This document shows, one piece after another, positions 3,867-48,351 of a stretch of DNA of 64,000 nucleotides. Each line of letters starts with the position of its first letter. Within the stretch, counting starts at the first letter, position 1. The notes under the pieces were generated by a model. That model did no database searches and had not been told where the DNA came from. It worked only from the letters and a program-made list of their open reading frames with translations. Made by a program: the position numbers and the translations under genes. Origin of the DNA: Lachnospiraceae bacterium (GTDB lineage Bacteria > Bacillota > Clostridia > Lachnospirales > Lachnospiraceae); NCBI GenBank assembly GCA_021203205.1, contig JAJQBQ010000046.1, positions 1 through 64,000 of the forward strand, read 5' to 3'.

Positions 3867-5033
3867 ATGAAAAAGAGAGTCTTAGTGGAGATGTTTTCCG
3901 GCAGATCGGCACGGATACAGTGGTCGAAATTCGGTAAAATGAAAAAGAAGATTTTAATGGGAATATTGTCGGCAGCCCTGCTCGTCGCTGCGGTTTGCCT
4001 GTTCTGTGCCTGCGGTGCCTCAGGAAACAGCAAGAAAAGTCCTCTGGCCGCAGATGAAAACCTGCTGATGTCAGGCGCGAAGCAAAGCGAGTACGTGTCC
4101 ACGGAAAGGGTCAGCGTACTCGCAAATGAGAACGGCCCCGTGCGCTCCGACGTGTACAGCATCACATTTCTGGACAGCCTTGCGGATGCGCCCGAAGATG
4201 CCTGGGATGTCTCCGATGCCGGAGATGGGCGGGTCTTAGCGTGGTTTGAGGATTCGGAAGAAAAGTGGATGTATGACCTGTACATCGCGGGTGAAAACGG
4301 TGTGAACGCGAACCCGGACAGTTCCGAGCTGTTTCTCGGATACACAAATTTGAAAGAAATCAACTTTAACGGCTGCTTCTACACGGATCAGGTGACGGAC
4401 ATGTACCGGATGTTTGCGACCTGCCTTTCGCTGGAAGAACTGGATGTCAGTTCCTTTGACACGAAAAACGTGCAGGACATGTGGGGGATGTTTGAAATCT
4501 GCGAATCCTTAAAAGAACTGGATTTAAGTTCCTTTGATACGTCATGCGTGGAGGATATGGCGAGCATGTTCTGTGACTGCGCATCCCTCGAGAAGGTGAA
4601 TCTGGACAGCTTTGACACATCTTCGGTTACAAAAATGTATTTCATGTTTTCAGATTGCAGTTCGCTGAAATCTCTGGATGTCGGCGGCTTCGACACGTCT
4701 TCGGTGACGGACATGTCCGACATGTTTTCCGGCTGCAGTTCACTGAAATCTCTGGATGTCGGCAGTTTTGACACGTCCTCGGTGACGGACATGTCTTACA
4801 TGTTCGCCGACTGCACTTCCTTAAAATCCTTAAATATCAGTAACTTTGACCTGACAGGTGCCGACACGACCGGGATGTTTGACGGGACAGATCTGGAAGA
4901 ACACCTGAATCAGGTGTGGACCGCCGGAAGGATCGCGGTGGTGGCTGTGATTACGTTGGTGGCAATGGGAATTGTGGTATATCTGATTGCTCTAAGGAAA
5001 AAGAAAGCTGCAGGAAATAAATTGAAAGGGTGA
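3867..5033 (+). CDS. BspA-like leucine-rich-repeat surface lipoprotein (DUF285)
   Basis: The protein carries at least six 24-25-residue repeats of the type SLKSLDVGSFDTSSVTDMS, the BspA/DUF285 signature of surface proteins in gut and oral bacteria. A signal-like segment begins at an internal Met (residue 25, MKKKILMGILSAALL) and ends with a Cys in a loose lipobox context (CLFCAC). A C-terminal membrane segment (VAVITLVAMGIVVYLIAL) is followed by a Lys-rich tail, so both ends may touch the membrane. The GGAG at 3855-3858 supports ATG 3867. The internal ATG at 3939 would give a cleaner signal peptide but has a poor ribosome site. Repeats at 4660-4810 are nearly identical at DNA level. Such proteins bind host or surface ligands in some species; the ligand here is unknown. 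Confidence 0.88.
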   Translation: MKKRVLVEMFSGRSARIQWSKFGKMKKKILMGILSAALLVAAVCLFCACGASGNSKKSPLAADENLLMSGAKQSEYVSTERVSVLANENGPVRSDVYSITFLDSLADAPEDAWDVSDAGDGRVLAWFEDSEEKWMYDLYIAGENGVNANPDSSELFLGYTNLKEINFNGCFYTDQVTDMYRMFATCLSLEELDVSSFDTKNVQDMWGMFEICESLKELDLSSFDTSCVEDMASMFCDCASLEKVNLDSFDTSSVTKMYFMFSDCSSLKSLDVGGFDTSSVTDMSDMFSGCSSLKSLDVGSFDTSSVTDMSYMFADCTSLKSLNISNFDLTGADTTGMFDGTDLEEHLNQVWTAGRIAVVAVITLVAMGIVVYLIALRKKKAAGNKLKG

Positions 5034-32377: not shown

Positions 32378-33070
32378 ATGAAGTTAAATGAACATTTGTC
32401 AGACACAAAACAGGAATCGCAAGAGGCCCAAAATAAGCATTCGGAGAGAAGGGTTTATCCTGACTATGAGGACATAGGACCCGACAGGCTAAAGGAAGCA
32501 GAGGTTGCCTATGGGCGGGGAAAGAGACAGGGAGAGTATACGCTCGAAGATTATTATGCGCTTCCTGACAACATTCGCGCGGAGCTGATTGACGGGGAAA
32601 TGTATCTCATGTCATGCCCGTCATGGAAGCACCAGCGGATTGTAACGCGCCTGAGCAGTCTGCTATATCAATATGTAGACAGCAAAAACGGAGATTGCGA
32701 GGTCTCATCTGCTCCATTTGACGTACAGCTGGACTGCAACATGTGGACCATGGTACAGCCGGATATCATGATTATCTGCAATCCGGACAGAATCATGGAT
32801 AACAGGATTTGCGGTGCGCCGGATTTCGTCGTGGAGGTACTCTCTCCATCGACGCGTAAAAAGGATCAGACAATAAAACTGCGGAAATACAGAGAAGCAG
32901 GCGTGCGGGAATATTGGATGATCGACCCGGAAAAGGAGCAGATCGAAGTTTATCTGTTTCGAACCAGGGATCTGGCCGTATTGCCGCGGGTATATTCTTT
33001 CGATGACATTGTTCCGGTGGGGATCTATGATGGCGACTGCAAAGTGGATTTTTCAAAGTTCCGCCGGTAG
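32378..33070 (+). CDS. Uma2-family (DUF820) PD-(D/E)XK nuclease-like protein
   Basis: A 230-residue protein whose last ~170 residues are a Uma2 domain, predicted to have a PD-(D/E)XK nuclease fold. Visible markers are AELIDGEMYLMSCPSWKHQR, VQPDIMII for the conserved Asp, PDFVVEVLSPSTRKKDQTIK for the catalytic Glu and Lys, and GVREYWMIDPEKEQIEVYLF (20 residues). The N-terminal ~60 residues are polar and probably a linker. Biological roles of Uma2 proteins are not settled; many are found near mobile elements. A close paralog is fused to TrmK at 45.8-46.6 kb, including the leader text EYT-EDYY. The ATG follows GGGAGAAAGG. Confidence 0.88.
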   Translation: MKLNEHLSDTKQESQEAQNKHSERRVYPDYEDIGPDRLKEAEVAYGRGKRQGEYTLEDYYALPDNIRAELIDGEMYLMSCPSWKHQRIVTRLSSLLYQYVDSKNGDCEVSSAPFDVQLDCNMWTMVQPDIMIICNPDRIMDNRICGAPDFVVEVLSPSTRKKDQTIKLRKYREAGVREYWMIDPEKEQIEVYLFRTRDLAVLPRVYSFDDIVPVGIYDGDCKVDFSKFRR

Positions 33071-42932: not shown

Positions 42933-43022
42933 TTTAAGTGAGTCAGTAAATCCACGTCGGAAGACAAAGCGCGAAGCGATTTCTCTTCATTAACTCGGTC
43001 AGGGGATTTATTGACTCACTTA
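42933..43022. repeat. 20-bp inverted repeat
   Basis: TTAAGTGAGTCAGTAAATCC (about 42936-42955) and GGATTTATTGACTCACTTAA (about 43003-43022) pair with one G-T. The ~47-nt loop contains CGAAGCG. It lies between divergent promoters. Confidence 0.7.
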
Positions 43023-43060
43023 AGGGTGATTGTGCAACAGTCGGCCAGACACGCAGGGGA

Positions 43061-43175
43061 GGCTGTCCGGAAAATCAAAACAGTCTCTCTGACTCCACAA
43101 CATATGGGTGCCGGAAGTGTTTGGAATACTACATGTTGTACCGAAAGAGGCAGAATGGTTTTTTCGGACAGTCTG
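43061..43175 (+). repeat. Three-hairpin structured repeat, copy B, in the dnaG leader
   Basis: GGCTGT (43061-43066) with ACAGTC (43080-43085), ACAACAT (43097-43103) with ATGTTGT (43133-43139), and CCGAAA (43141-43146) with TTTCGG (43162-43167). The order and the loop text TCAAAACA and CTCTCTGA agree with copy A at 2422-2531. It ends 12 nt before the dnaG start codon. Confidence 0.7.
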
Positions 43176-43187
43176 AGGGGGAGGTCT

Positions 43188-44957
43188 ATGTATTATCAGG
43201 AAGATCTGATCGAGGAAGTGCGCGAAAAAAATGATATCGTGAAACTGATTTCCGGCTATGTGCGGCTCCAGAGAAAGGGCAGCAATTACTTTGGTCTGTG
43301 CCCGTTCCACAATGAGAAGTCGCCGTCCTTTTCCGTGTCGCCGCAGAAACAGATGTACCATTGCTTTGGCTGCGGAGAAAGCGGGACTGTCTTTACGTTT
43401 CTGATGAAATATGAAAATCTGACATTCCCCGAATCCGTGAAGCGTCTGGCGGATCGTGCCGGCATGGCTCTGCCCGAGGTGGAATATACGGGGGAGCAGA
43501 AGCGCATGGCGGATAAAAGGACAGCACTTCTCGCTATCAATAAAGAGGCGGCGATCTGGTTTGTCAGGCAGCTCTCCCGGGAACGGGGAGAGGCGGCCAG
43601 GGCATATCTGCAGAAAAGGGAACTGAGCGCCGAGACGATCCGACAGTTTGGCCTGGGATACGCGGGCATGAATTCGAACGATCTCTACCGGAGGCTGAAA
43701 CAGAAATATTCGGACGAGCTTCTGCGGGAGAGCGGCCTTTTTTCTTTCAGCGAAAAAGGGGTTTACGGGAAGTTTTTTAACCGTGTCATGTTTCCGATTA
43801 TGGATGTGAACAGCCGTGTCATCGGTTTCGGCGGCCGTGTGATGGGGGACGGGCAGCCGAAATACCTGAATTCGCCGGAGACACCGGTGTTTGACAAGAG
43901 CCGAAACCTGTACGGACTGCATGCGGCCAGACGCTCCAGGGCCGATTATATGATCCTCTGTGAGGGCTATATGGATGTGATCGCCATGCATCAGGCAGGG
44001 TTCTCCATGGCGGTGGCTTCTCTCGGCACCTCGCTGACATCAGGGCAGGCATCCCTGCTGAAAAGGTACGCAAAGGAAGTGCGCCTGATTTACGACAGCG
44101 ACGCCGCGGGTGTGAAGGCTGCGCTACGCGCGATCCCTATTTTAAAGGAAGCGGGGCTGTCCGCGCGGGTGGTAAACCTGAAGCCCCACAAGGATCCGGA
44201 CGAATTTATTAAGGCCCAGGGGGCGGAAGCATTCCGCGAACGCCTGGATCAGGCCAGGAACAGCTTCTTCTTTGAGATTGATGTTATAAAGCAGAATTAC
44301 CGTCTCGAGGATCCGGAACAGAAGACGGCATTTTATCAGGAGGTATGCCGCAGGCTGGTGGATGAATTTGACGACGAGCTGGAGCGGAACAACTATACGG
44401 AGGCTGTGTGCAGAGAATTTATGCTGCCGTTAGAGGGCATAAAAAGGCAGGTCAATCAGCTGCGACTGATCTCCGGCGGCAGGAAGGAGCCGGTTCGCAC
44501 ACAGCCGGAGGTCCGGGAACAGAGGCGAAAAAAGCAGGAGGAGGCAAAAGAACTGCCACAGCAGCTGCTCTTAACCTGGCTGATCGAGGATCCGGGGCTC
44601 TACCGCGAGGTCTCCCGCTACATCCGACCGGATGACTTTCTGAATCCGGTGTACCGCAGGGCGGCGGAGCTGCTTTTCGGGCAGCTGGCAGCGGGAAAAC
44701 CGAATCCGGCGGGGATCGTGGATCAGTTTGAGACGGAAGAAGAGCAGAAAGAGGCGGCGAAGCTGTTCAACGCTTCCTTATTAAAAGAAGAACTTTCCGG
44801 CAAAGAAAAGGAACAGGCGGTGAATGATATTGTGTACCGCGTGAAGAAAGACAGTCTTGACGCGAAGCTTCGCACGGCAACCACAGCGGCCGAGATGCGG
44901 GATATTCTCGGGGAGCAGAAAGAGCTGAAGAACATACGGGTGCGGGTGGTGATTTAG
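43188..44957 (+). CDS. dnaG: DNA primase
   Basis: Makes RNA primers for DNA replication. The 589 residues show the CHC2 zinc finger (Cys38, His41, Cys59, Cys62 in CPFHNEKSP and CFGCGESG), the primase core motif GFGGRVMGDGQPKYLNS near 212, the TOPRIM Glu and Asp in ILCEGYMDVIAMHQ near 257 and YDSDAAGVKAA near 302, and a C-terminal helicase-binding domain. ATG 43188 is set by GGGGGAGGT; the open frame upstream runs through the hairpin repeat and is not coding. In most clostridia rpoD follows; here the next gene is TrmK-like. Confidence 0.97.
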   Translation: MYYQEDLIEEVREKNDIVKLISGYVRLQRKGSNYFGLCPFHNEKSPSFSVSPQKQMYHCFGCGESGTVFTFLMKYENLTFPESVKRLADRAGMALPEVEYTGEQKRMADKRTALLAINKEAAIWFVRQLSRERGEAARAYLQKRELSAETIRQFGLGYAGMNSNDLYRRLKQKYSDELLRESGLFSFSEKGVYGKFFNRVMFPIMDVNSRVIGFGGRVMGDGQPKYLNSPETPVFDKSRNLYGLHAARRSRADYMILCEGYMDVIAMHQAGFSMAVASLGTSLTSGQASLLKRYAKEVRLIYDSDAAGVKAALRAIPILKEAGLSARVVNLKPHKDPDEFIKAQGAEAFRERLDQARNSFFFEIDVIKQNYRLEDPEQKTAFYQEVCRRLVDEFDDELERNNYTEAVCREFMLPLEGIKRQVNQLRLISGGRKEPVRTQPEVREQRRKKQEEAKELPQQLLLTWLIEDPGLYREVSRYIRPDDFLNPVYRRAAELLFGQLAAGKPNPAGIVDQFETEEEQKEAAKLFNASLLKEELSGKEKEQAVNDIVYRVKKDSLDAKLRTATTAAEMRDILGEQKELKNIRVRVVI

Positions 44958-44987
44958 AGCATACAAAGCGTCGCCGTTCGGAGTCGG

Positions 44988-45010
44988 GTGACTGTTACAC
45001 AGTCATCCTC
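44988..45010. repeat. Short relative of the folded repeat (hairpin)
   Basis: TGACTGTTACACAGTCA with flanks GG and TCCTC agrees in 22-23 of 24 positions with the hairpin inside the large element at 23608-23631. It lies in the dnaG-trmK gap. Confidence 0.7.
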
Positions 45011-45059
45011 TGTGAGATCGAAAATCTGAAAATTTATAGAAATAGGATTTACAAAAAAG

Positions 45060-46583
45060 ATGGGACATAAATTAAACCTGAGTGTTCGCCTTCGTGCGGT
45101 GGCTTCTTATGCCGTGTCGGGTCTGCCGCTGGCCGATATCGGAACCGACCACGGCTACGTGCCGATTTATCTCGTTGACCGGGGGGTTATTCCGTCCGCG
45201 ATCGCGGCGGACGTGCGCACCGGACCGCTGGAGAGGGCGGCGGAACACATTCGTGAATATGGACTGGAAGAAAAAATCAAAGTAAGACTTTCGGACGGAC
45301 TGAAAAACATCAGGCCCGGAGAAGTATCCCAGGTACTGATCGCCGGCATGGGCGGAGGCCTTATGGCACGCATTCTGGCGGAAGGACAGAATGTCCTGCA
45401 CGAGGACGGCTTCTGCCGACTGATACTTTCTCCGCAGTCGGAAGTCCGCCTGGTACGGGAAGAGCTGGCAAAGAGCGGGTTTCAGATTACCGAAGAGCAT
45501 ATGGTAAAGGATGAGGGGAAATTTTACTTCATTATTATAGGAGAGCCTGGGGACTGCGACTACAGCACGGAGGAAGATTTTCTCTTTGGAAAACGGCTGG
45601 TGGAGAATCGGGATGAAGTATTTCTGGAGTATCTGGAAGAAAAACGCAGGAAGGATGAGGAAATCCTGACCGTGTTAAGGAAAAGGCTGGAGACAGGAGA
45701 GGAAGATGAGAAAATCTTAAGCAGAATCGCAGAGATAGAAGAGGAAAAGAGACGGATTTTAGTTTTGTACAGTCTGGCGGGAGGAGAAAAAGAAACTATG
45801 GTGAAAAGAATTTCATTTACGGACGAAGACAGAAGAATGACATCTGTGGAAGTGGTCGTGGAAGACTTCGAAGATGATGATATGGGGAATACGGATGGCG
45901 GTGAAGCCGAAAGGCTATACAGAGATTTTTTCGTGAGCGAAGAAGAAACCGGGATTTATGCGGAACATCCTGTTCTGAAAGAACCTGAGGTGGCATATGG
46001 GCACAGAAAAGTATCCGGAGAGTATACGATCGAGGATTATTACCGGCTGCCGGAAGGTGTCCGCATAGAGCTGATTGACGGGGTTTTCTACTATATGGGA
46101 GCGCCGATTGCAACGCACCAGATTATAGCACATAAACTGGCAATGGCATTCTCGTTGTATTTAGAAAAGAAGAATGGCAAATGTGAAGTCCTGCCCGGCG
46201 CCGATGTGCAGCTTGACCGTGATGACTGGACCATGCTCCAACCGGATATCGTGGTTGTTTACGACCGCGATAAAATAAGAAACCAGATATACGGGAATCC
46301 GGATCTGGTGGTGGAAGTCCTTTCACGGTCAACCAGAAAGAGAGACCGTACCATTAAACTGCACAAATACCAGAAGGCGGGGGTGCGGGAATACTGGATG
46401 GTCGACCCGAAGAAGAAAATGGTGGAGGTGTATATTTTTCCTGATCTGGAAATGGCAACGCTTCCGCGAGTGTATAAGTTTGAAGACAGAATCCCGGTCG
46501 GCATCTTTGACGGAGAGTGTGAGGTGGATTTTGGGAAAATCTACCATAGTATTGAGGATCTGATGGAAAGAGAAAACAATTGA
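45060..46583 (+). CDS. trmK: TrmK tRNA methyltransferase fused to a Uma2 domain
   Basis: One uninterrupted frame of 507 codons joins two families. Residues 1-~235 are TrmK, which makes m1A22 in tRNA: ADIGTDHGYVPIYLVDRGV near 25-43, VRLSDGLKNIRPGEV, IAGMGGGLMARIL near 96-108, and LILSPQSEVRLVREEL. Residues ~310-500 are a Uma2 PD-(D/E)XK domain with RIELIDGVFYYMGAP, MLQPDIVVVYDRD, LVVEVLSRSTRKRDRTIK and GVREYWMVDPKK. Met247 (ATG 45798) has its own GGGAGGAG 11 nt upstream, so the Uma2 part may also be made alone. TrmK normally ends near 230 residues, so a lost stop between two genes is the simplest origin. The start codon has only a distant AGGA. Confidence 0.85.
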   Translation: MGHKLNLSVRLRAVASYAVSGLPLADIGTDHGYVPIYLVDRGVIPSAIAADVRTGPLERAAEHIREYGLEEKIKVRLSDGLKNIRPGEVSQVLIAGMGGGLMARILAEGQNVLHEDGFCRLILSPQSEVRLVREELAKSGFQITEEHMVKDEGKFYFIIIGEPGDCDYSTEEDFLFGKRLVENRDEVFLEYLEEKRRKDEEILTVLRKRLETGEEDEKILSRIAEIEEEKRRILVLYSLAGGEKETMVKRISFTDEDRRMTSVEVVVEDFEDDDMGNTDGGEAERLYRDFFVSEEETGIYAEHPVLKEPEVAYGHRKVSGEYTIEDYYRLPEGVRIELIDGVFYYMGAPIATHQIIAHKLAMAFSLYLEKKNGKCEVLPGADVQLDRDDWTMLQPDIVVVYDRDKIRNQIYGNPDLVVEVLSRSTRKRDRTIKLHKYQKAGVREYWMVDPKKKMVEVYIFPDLEMATLPRVYKFEDRIPVGIFDGECEVDFGKIYHSIEDLMERENN

Positions 46584-46662: not shown

Positions 46663-48351
46663 ATGGAGTTATATCGCGGAATCATACAGGGAAAAGACAG
46701 AACTTATCCGAAAGGAACCACATTATATCAGCTGGCCGCAGAGGCGCAGCCGGGAGAGCCGTACCCGATTGTACTCGGTGTGCGCAATGGGCGAATCTGT
46801 GAGCTCTACCACCGCGCAACCGACGGAAACCGTATCGAATTTCTGACGACCAAAAACCGCTACGGTATGGATGCCTACCGCAGAAGTGTGGTGTTTCTGA
46901 TGCTGAAAGCCTTCTATGCGGTCTGCGGTGAGGACAGAATCGGGAGGATTGAAATAAAACACTCGCTTGGGGGAAATCTGTACTGTGAGATCTCATGGAA
47001 GAATTATGTTACATCGGAAGAAAAAGGCAGCTTTCTTAATCAGACGCTTATCGACCGGGTTCTTGAGAAAATGCGGGATCTGGTTGCGCAGAAAAAAGAG
47101 ATTCGCAAGCGCTATATCGACATTGAGGAGGCCAGAGATCTGTTTCGTACGCACCACATGAGCGACAAGGAGAAGCTCTTCCGCTTCCGGAAAAACGAGC
47201 GTGTGCCGATTTATGAACTGGACGGCTACCGGGACTACTTCTACGGATATATGGTTCATAATACAGAGTGTCTCACTGTTTTTGACCTTAAGCCTTACGA
47301 TCAGGGCTTTCTGCTGTGTCTGCCAACGGTAAAGAATCCGGAGCAGCCGTCGCCCGCAAAAATTCCGACCCAGCTGTTTGCAACGCTGGCGGAGGCGGAT
47401 GACTGGATATCAAAGCTGGGCTCCGGCACGGTCGGTGAGCTGAATGAACAGATTATCAACGGAAATTTCAACCAGATCATGCTGGTTCAGGAAGCATTGC
47501 AGGAGCGAAAAATTGCGGAGATCGCGAAACGTATCGCCTCCGACCGCACGAAGAAATTCGTGCTGATTGCGGGCCCGTCGTCCTCCGGAAAGACGACCTT
47601 TTCAAAGCGCCTCAGTATTCAGCTCCTGGCTTTCGGCATGAAGCCGCACCCGGTGGAGGTGGACGACTACTTTGTAGACCGGGAACGCACACCGCGCGAT
47701 GAAAACGGAAACTATAACTTTGAAGCCCTTGAGGCGATCGATATCGACCGCTTTCAGAGTGACCTCCTGGCCCTCTCGGCGGGGGAAGAAATCGAACTCC
47801 CGCGCTTCAATTTCCAGAAGGGCTTAAGTGAACACTCCGGCAGGCGGCTAAAGCTTGAAGAGGATGATATTTTGATTTTGGAGGGCATCCACTGCATGAA
47901 TGACCGCCTCACGAACCTCATCCCGGAGGAGAAAAAGTTCAAAATATACCTGAGTGCACTCACACAGCTGAACGTGGACGATCACAACTACATTTCCACC
48001 TCGGACTGCCGCATGATTCGCCGCATGGTGCGGGACGCCCGCACCCGGGGCAACGACGCCAGAGCCACCATCACCATGTGGCCGTCGGTGCGACGGGGCG
48101 AGGAGGAAAACATCTTCCCCTATCAGGAAGAGGCCGATGTGATGTTTAACTCCACGCTCGTCTACGAGCTGCCGATTCTGAAACAGTTCGCGGAGCCCCT
48201 GCTCTTTACCATTCGCCCGGACGATGTCTGCTATCCGGAGGCGAAACGGCTGCTGGACTTTCTCGACCATTTTCTCGGAGTGACCAGCGAGAACGTGCCG
48301 ACAAACTCGCTGCTGCGGGAGTTTATCGGGCACAGCTGTTTTGAACAGTAA
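46663..48351 (+). CDS. Nucleoside (uridine) kinase with TGS/ThrRS-like N-terminus
   Basis: A 562-residue protein with a TGS-like and threonyl-tRNA-synthetase-like N-terminal half (about 1-260) joined to a P-loop kinase of the uridine kinase/phosphoribulokinase type. The kinase has Walker A IAGPSSSGKTTFSKRLS near 305, VEVDDYFVDRERTP near 331 and ILEGIHCMNDRL near 405. This domain pair is well known in Firmicutes, where it is annotated as nucleoside kinase; the role of the tRNA-synthetase-like half is unknown. GGAGGT at 46650-46655 supports ATG 46663. RNase P RNA follows ~65 nt downstream. Confidence 0.88.
   Translation: MELYRGIIQGKDRTYPKGTTLYQLAAEAQPGEPYPIVLGVRNGRICELYHRATDGNRIEFLTTKNRYGMDAYRRSVVFLMLKAFYAVCGEDRIGRIEIKHSLGGNLYCEISWKNYVTSEEKGSFLNQTLIDRVLEKMRDLVAQKKEIRKRYIDIEEARDLFRTHHMSDKEKLFRFRKNERVPIYELDGYRDYFYGYMVHNTECLTVFDLKPYDQGFLLCLPTVKNPEQPSPAKIPTQLFATLAEADDWISKLGSGTVGELNEQIINGNFNQIMLVQEALQERKIAEIAKRIASDRTKKFVLIAGPSSSGKTTFSKRLSIQLLAFGMKPHPVEVDDYFVDRERTPRDENGNYNFEALEAIDIDRFQSDLLALSAGEEIELPRFNFQKGLSEHSGRRLKLEEDDILILEGIHCMNDRLTNLIPEEKKFKIYLSALTQLNVDDHNYISTSDCRMIRRMVRDARTRGNDARATITMWPSVRRGEEENIFPYQEEADVMFNSTLVYELPILKQFAEPLLFTIRPDDVCYPEAKRLLDFLDHFLGVTSENVPTNSLLREFIGHSCFEQ

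Follow-up and report, generated by a model that had tools for sequence, protein, structure and literature searches.

An Open Reading Frame Joining a Whole TrmK Methyltransferase and a Uma2 Domain in a Lachnospiraceae Genome

Results

Domain Organization of the Fused Frame

The window, which is the whole 64,000-nucleotide stretch that was analyzed (G000:C32), harbors at positions 45060–46583 of the forward strand a single open frame running from ATG 45060 to TGA 46583 without an internal stop and encoding 507 amino acids, and this fused reading frame is real in the present assembly. The features of the locus are listed in Table 1. The first-pass annotation had described complete motifs of a TrmK tRNA methyltransferase and of a Uma2 nuclease-like protein in this one stop-free frame, with which both the Pfam matches and the residue alignments agree. 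The TrmK (m1A22 tRNA methyltransferase) domain, PF04816, occupies residues 24–227 with an E value of 4e-48 and covers positions 1–204 of the 205-position profile, representing a whole-domain match, and the core of the Uma2 domain (PF05685) occupies residues 325–461 with an E value of 1e-30, covering positions 2–142 of 172. A search of the fused protein against NCBIfam returned no match.

Table 1. Features of the fused locus and its surroundings in the window.
Feature	Position	Strand	Basis
dnaG (DNA primase), upstream neighbor	43011..44957	+	ORF; same order in congener (L057)
TrmK part, residues 1–243	45060..45788	+	Rossmann SAM domain and complete C-terminal helical/coiled-coil domain; Pfam, PDB, AlphaFold2
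GGGAGGAG, Shine-Dalgarno-like site within the TrmK tail	45779..45786	+	anti-SD duplex -10.3 kcal/mol
Joint and linker, residues 244–317	45789..46010	+	predicted disordered, acidic; pLDDT, composition
Uma2 gene read from Met247, 261 aa	45798..46583	+	D396/E419/K433; PF05685, PDC-S03, paralog-like length
Nucleoside-kinase-like gene, ATG 46663, strong Shine-Dalgarno	46663..48351	+	adjoins trmK directly in congener
Standalone Uma2 paralog (locus L005)	32378..33070	+	57% identity to fused Uma2

The TrmK part matches the PDB entries 3kr9, 6q56 and 7o4m, and in the alignment to 7o4m the residues Arg7, Asp22 and Asp26 of the S. aureus enzyme, whose roles are described in PMC9190014, correspond to R10, D26 and D30 of the fusion. 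Compared with the TrmK proteins of B. subtilis (6q56) and S. aureus (7o4m), both assigned to PF04816 and COG2384, the fusion retains the same whole domain with the SAM-site and proposed catalytic residues, the helical C-terminal domain and the adjacency to dnaG, but differs in having no stop at the end of TrmK and in carrying about 260 extra residues. The Uma2 part (PF05685, DUF820, COG4636) matches the PADLOC profile PDC-S03 with an E value of 5e-40 and shares the whole PD-(D/E)XK-like domain and the habit of multiplied paralogs with known Uma2 proteins; its D396, E419 and K433 align with the solved Uma2-type chains 6okh and 9y1l and, by superfamily analogy, may form the acidic pair and lysine of a putative active site. 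It differs from these proteins in being attached behind TrmK and in reading EVLSR, whereas its paralogs read E(V/I)(L/M)SP. This EVLSR was considered as a sign of decay and rejected, as the solved Uma2 chains carry ILSE there and the site varies.

The Joint, the Linker and the Possible Internal Start

The TrmK proteins of about 46 relatives, with fused, cut and extended cases left out, end 137–160 residues past the GMGG motif, and Met247 of the fusion sits 151 residues past it; as this falls within the normal range, the TrmK part is whole and ends about where a second gene would start. The linker contains 21 D/E versus 10 K/R residues and, from Met247 onward, constitutes the N-terminal tail of Uma2, similar hydrophilic tails being present in the paralogs of the fused Uma2. 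Read from Met247, the protein comprises a Uma2 domain preceded by a hydrophilic tail, and its build and size lie in the range of the standalone Uma2 genes of the genome.

The internal ATG (45798) preceded by GGGAGGAG, which had been proposed as a possible start of the Uma2 part alone, was recovered, and its anti-SD duplex is the best among the 37 in-frame start codons, 1.5% of background positions equaling its energy. The spacing of 13 nt between the GGAGG and the ATG is above the ideal, and separate production of Uma2 from Met247 is uncertain because of this long spacing.

An AlphaFold2 model gave a confident TrmK domain (to about residue 243, with C-terminal helices 184–211 and 217–239 at high confidence) and a confident Uma2 domain (from about residue 318), with a pTM of 0.49, and the 74 residues of the linker between them had pLDDT values below 50, as expected of disorder. 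The model was built on a 38-row alignment in which the TrmK tails are poorly placed, so it informs little on contacts between the domains; as far as such a few-sequence model can tell, the two would be separate domains, like beads on a string.

Genomic Neighborhood and the Congener

In the congener, which is the sole other genome of the genus in the comparison, the corresponding locus (L057) carries, in this order, dnaG, trmK, the kinase gene, a CNNM-type gene and a pyrB-type gene; 5 nt separate the end of trmK from the start of the kinase gene, and no Uma2 match was found in that genome. In many family members trmK is flanked by rpoD and nif3, and both genomes of the genus lack these two genes at this position (window 44957–45060; L057). 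Mobile-element ends were looked for at the Uma2 insertion and not found: no inverted repeats were detected at the site, nor were flanking repeats or flanks common to the other Uma2 loci that would point to a carrier, and similarity to those loci is confined to the coding part.

The Uma2 Family in the Genome

Twelve Uma2 loci were identified in the genome, the fused one and 11 others, among them the paralog at 32378 from which a multiplication of the family had earlier been read, and that reading is borne out. In a tree with the Uma2 proteins of other family members, the genome's own copies form one clade with support of 97/99, comprising 13 tree rows, one of which is a cut copy of another locus. 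Comparisons of the fused Uma2 with L003 and L004 gave dN of 0.33–0.43 and dS of 1.2–2.8, although for most pairs dS was either saturated or could not be computed; these paralog comparisons show purifying constraint on the Uma2 part in general rather than for the time after joining. Expansion of Uma2 has been described in Thermus and cyanobacteria (PMC1274311), and Uma2 has been proposed to be a solo toxin mostly forming cassettes of paralogs (PMC2701414). Tandem Uma2 cassettes also occur in this genome, with three paralogs on contig C8 (58138–60550) and two on C15 (65310–66632). One further paralog match, L006 (G000:C48:116666–117304), contains an in-frame TAG and may be a decaying copy.

Search for the Fusion in Other Genomes

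A search for the same fusion in related genomes, suggested by the first-pass annotation, yielded no second case: with the 507-aa query, no other TrmK-Uma2 fusion was seen among the matches listed for the 397 family genomes, nor was there one at E below 1e-62 in 392 genomes of the order or at E below 1e-60 in 398 genomes of the phylum, the three samples overlapping and the strict cut-offs for the order and phylum being such that very divergent fusions could be missed. A second species with this architecture, by which a conserved TrmK-Uma2 composite family would be recognized, was thus not found in these samples (for the family, among the matches listed). Several candidates were rejected: L044 matches residues 217–494 of the query, yet the protein there lacks TrmK and is a Uma2 of its own whose N-terminus is HTH-like; in G271 and G412 the TrmK frames owe their length to extension upstream; and G217, tabulated at 622 aa in the search output, has in its DNA a TrmK stopping at TAG. 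The protein at L044 (positions 4076–4855), from Lachnospiraceae bacterium UBA4348, represents a Uma2 with an N-terminal HTH-like segment.

Genome G205 carries a TrmK in frame with a downstream nucleoside-kinase-like gene (L061:1840–4200, 787 aa), where trmK has independently run on into its neighbor. As in the window, TrmK there runs in frame into the next gene, but its partner is an old operon neighbor, whereas the Uma2 gene in the window appears to have arrived. A published fusion of TrmK (COG2384) with DUF34 (PMC8469502), that of Ruminococcus flavefaciens, likewise joins TrmK to a common operon neighbor, there DUF34/NIF3; the partner is different, and the comparison follows the description in that paper. 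In several relatives the gene after trmK lies in the same frame shortly past the trmK stop, so that one lost stop suffices for such a joining.

Discussion

The fusion is probably best explained by two whole genes having been joined tail to head in this lineage, giving two independent domains on a flexible linker, and it has the look of intact genes that became linked by chance in one species, not of a new kind of enzyme. A Uma2 gene of the lineage-multiplied set would have landed between trmK and the kinase, as the dnaG-trmK-kinase order of the congener suggests, and the TrmK stop codon would have been lost at the insertion or later, after which translation would run from TrmK through the N-terminal tail of Uma2 into Uma2 itself. 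Arrival of Uma2 at this position in the window's lineage is most likely, given that the congener is without Uma2 and has trmK 5 nt from the kinase; Uma2 may instead have been lost in the congener. Of the two readings raised in the first-pass annotation, the recent fusion of neighbors is favored, because the joint lies at the usual end of TrmK, the Uma2 is whole with a strong Shine-Dalgarno site of its own, the congener lacks Uma2 and no relative sampled shares the fusion; it would be more than a stop lost between neighbors of long standing, as Uma2 appears new at the site.

The product most likely consists of two domains that fold and work independently. Partial removal of the C-terminal domain abolishes the activity of B. 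subtilis TrmK (reported in PMC9190014); since this domain is complete in the fusion, TrmK is probably active, and with its motifs intact it would still methylate tRNA A22. Uma2 would retain whatever nuclease-like role its paralogs have, and internal initiation at Met247 may additionally yield Uma2 alone.

It is unlikely that the joint is a base error of the assembly and that trmK and Uma2 are really adjacent genes split by a stop. The genome is a 61-contig draft, at several codons near the joint a single base change would give a stop, and Met247 carries its own strong Shine-Dalgarno site, as a separate gene would; yet no positive sign of an error was seen, there being no gap, with both domains in one frame and the tail open in this frame only, and a comparable fusion is present in G205.

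A selected composite enzyme, in which TrmK recruits the nuclease to tRNA or the nuclease works where the methyl mark is missing, is very improbable. Both domains look intact, PADLOC lists Uma2 as a defense candidate (PDC-S03), on which a literature search found nothing, and the solo-toxin proposal in PMC2701414 would fit; but the fusion occurs in one species only among the samples (for the family, among the matches listed), the linker is predicted to be disordered, the joint coincides with the native ends of the two genes, the genome's remaining Uma2 copies stand on their own, and the literature searched yielded no RNA target for Uma2. The idea of tRNA modification and cleavage advanced earlier has no support besides the shared frame, and the fuller version, in which the fusion is expressed and selected and TrmK delivers Uma2 to tRNA so that one protein checks and cleaves it, perhaps as an anti-phage device, is slightly more improbable still.

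No more probable than the composite enzyme is a retained parasitic coupling, by which Uma2 is welded to a housekeeping gene so that its loss would cost TrmK expression or stability: the multiplication of Uma2 in the lineage and its tandem cassettes as described in PMC2701414 would suit it, but only one of the 12 Uma2 copies is fused, and neither mobile-element ends nor flanking repeats nor shared flanks were found at the site.

The chance joining of two intact genes, as preferred here, carries a warning that the co-occurrence of domains in one species is no evidence of joint function. Together with the TrmK-kinase and TrmK-DUF34 proteins, it is a sign that the C-terminus of TrmK tolerates run-on into whatever follows, and the case shows an amplified gene family of unsettled function becoming welded to a housekeeping gene.
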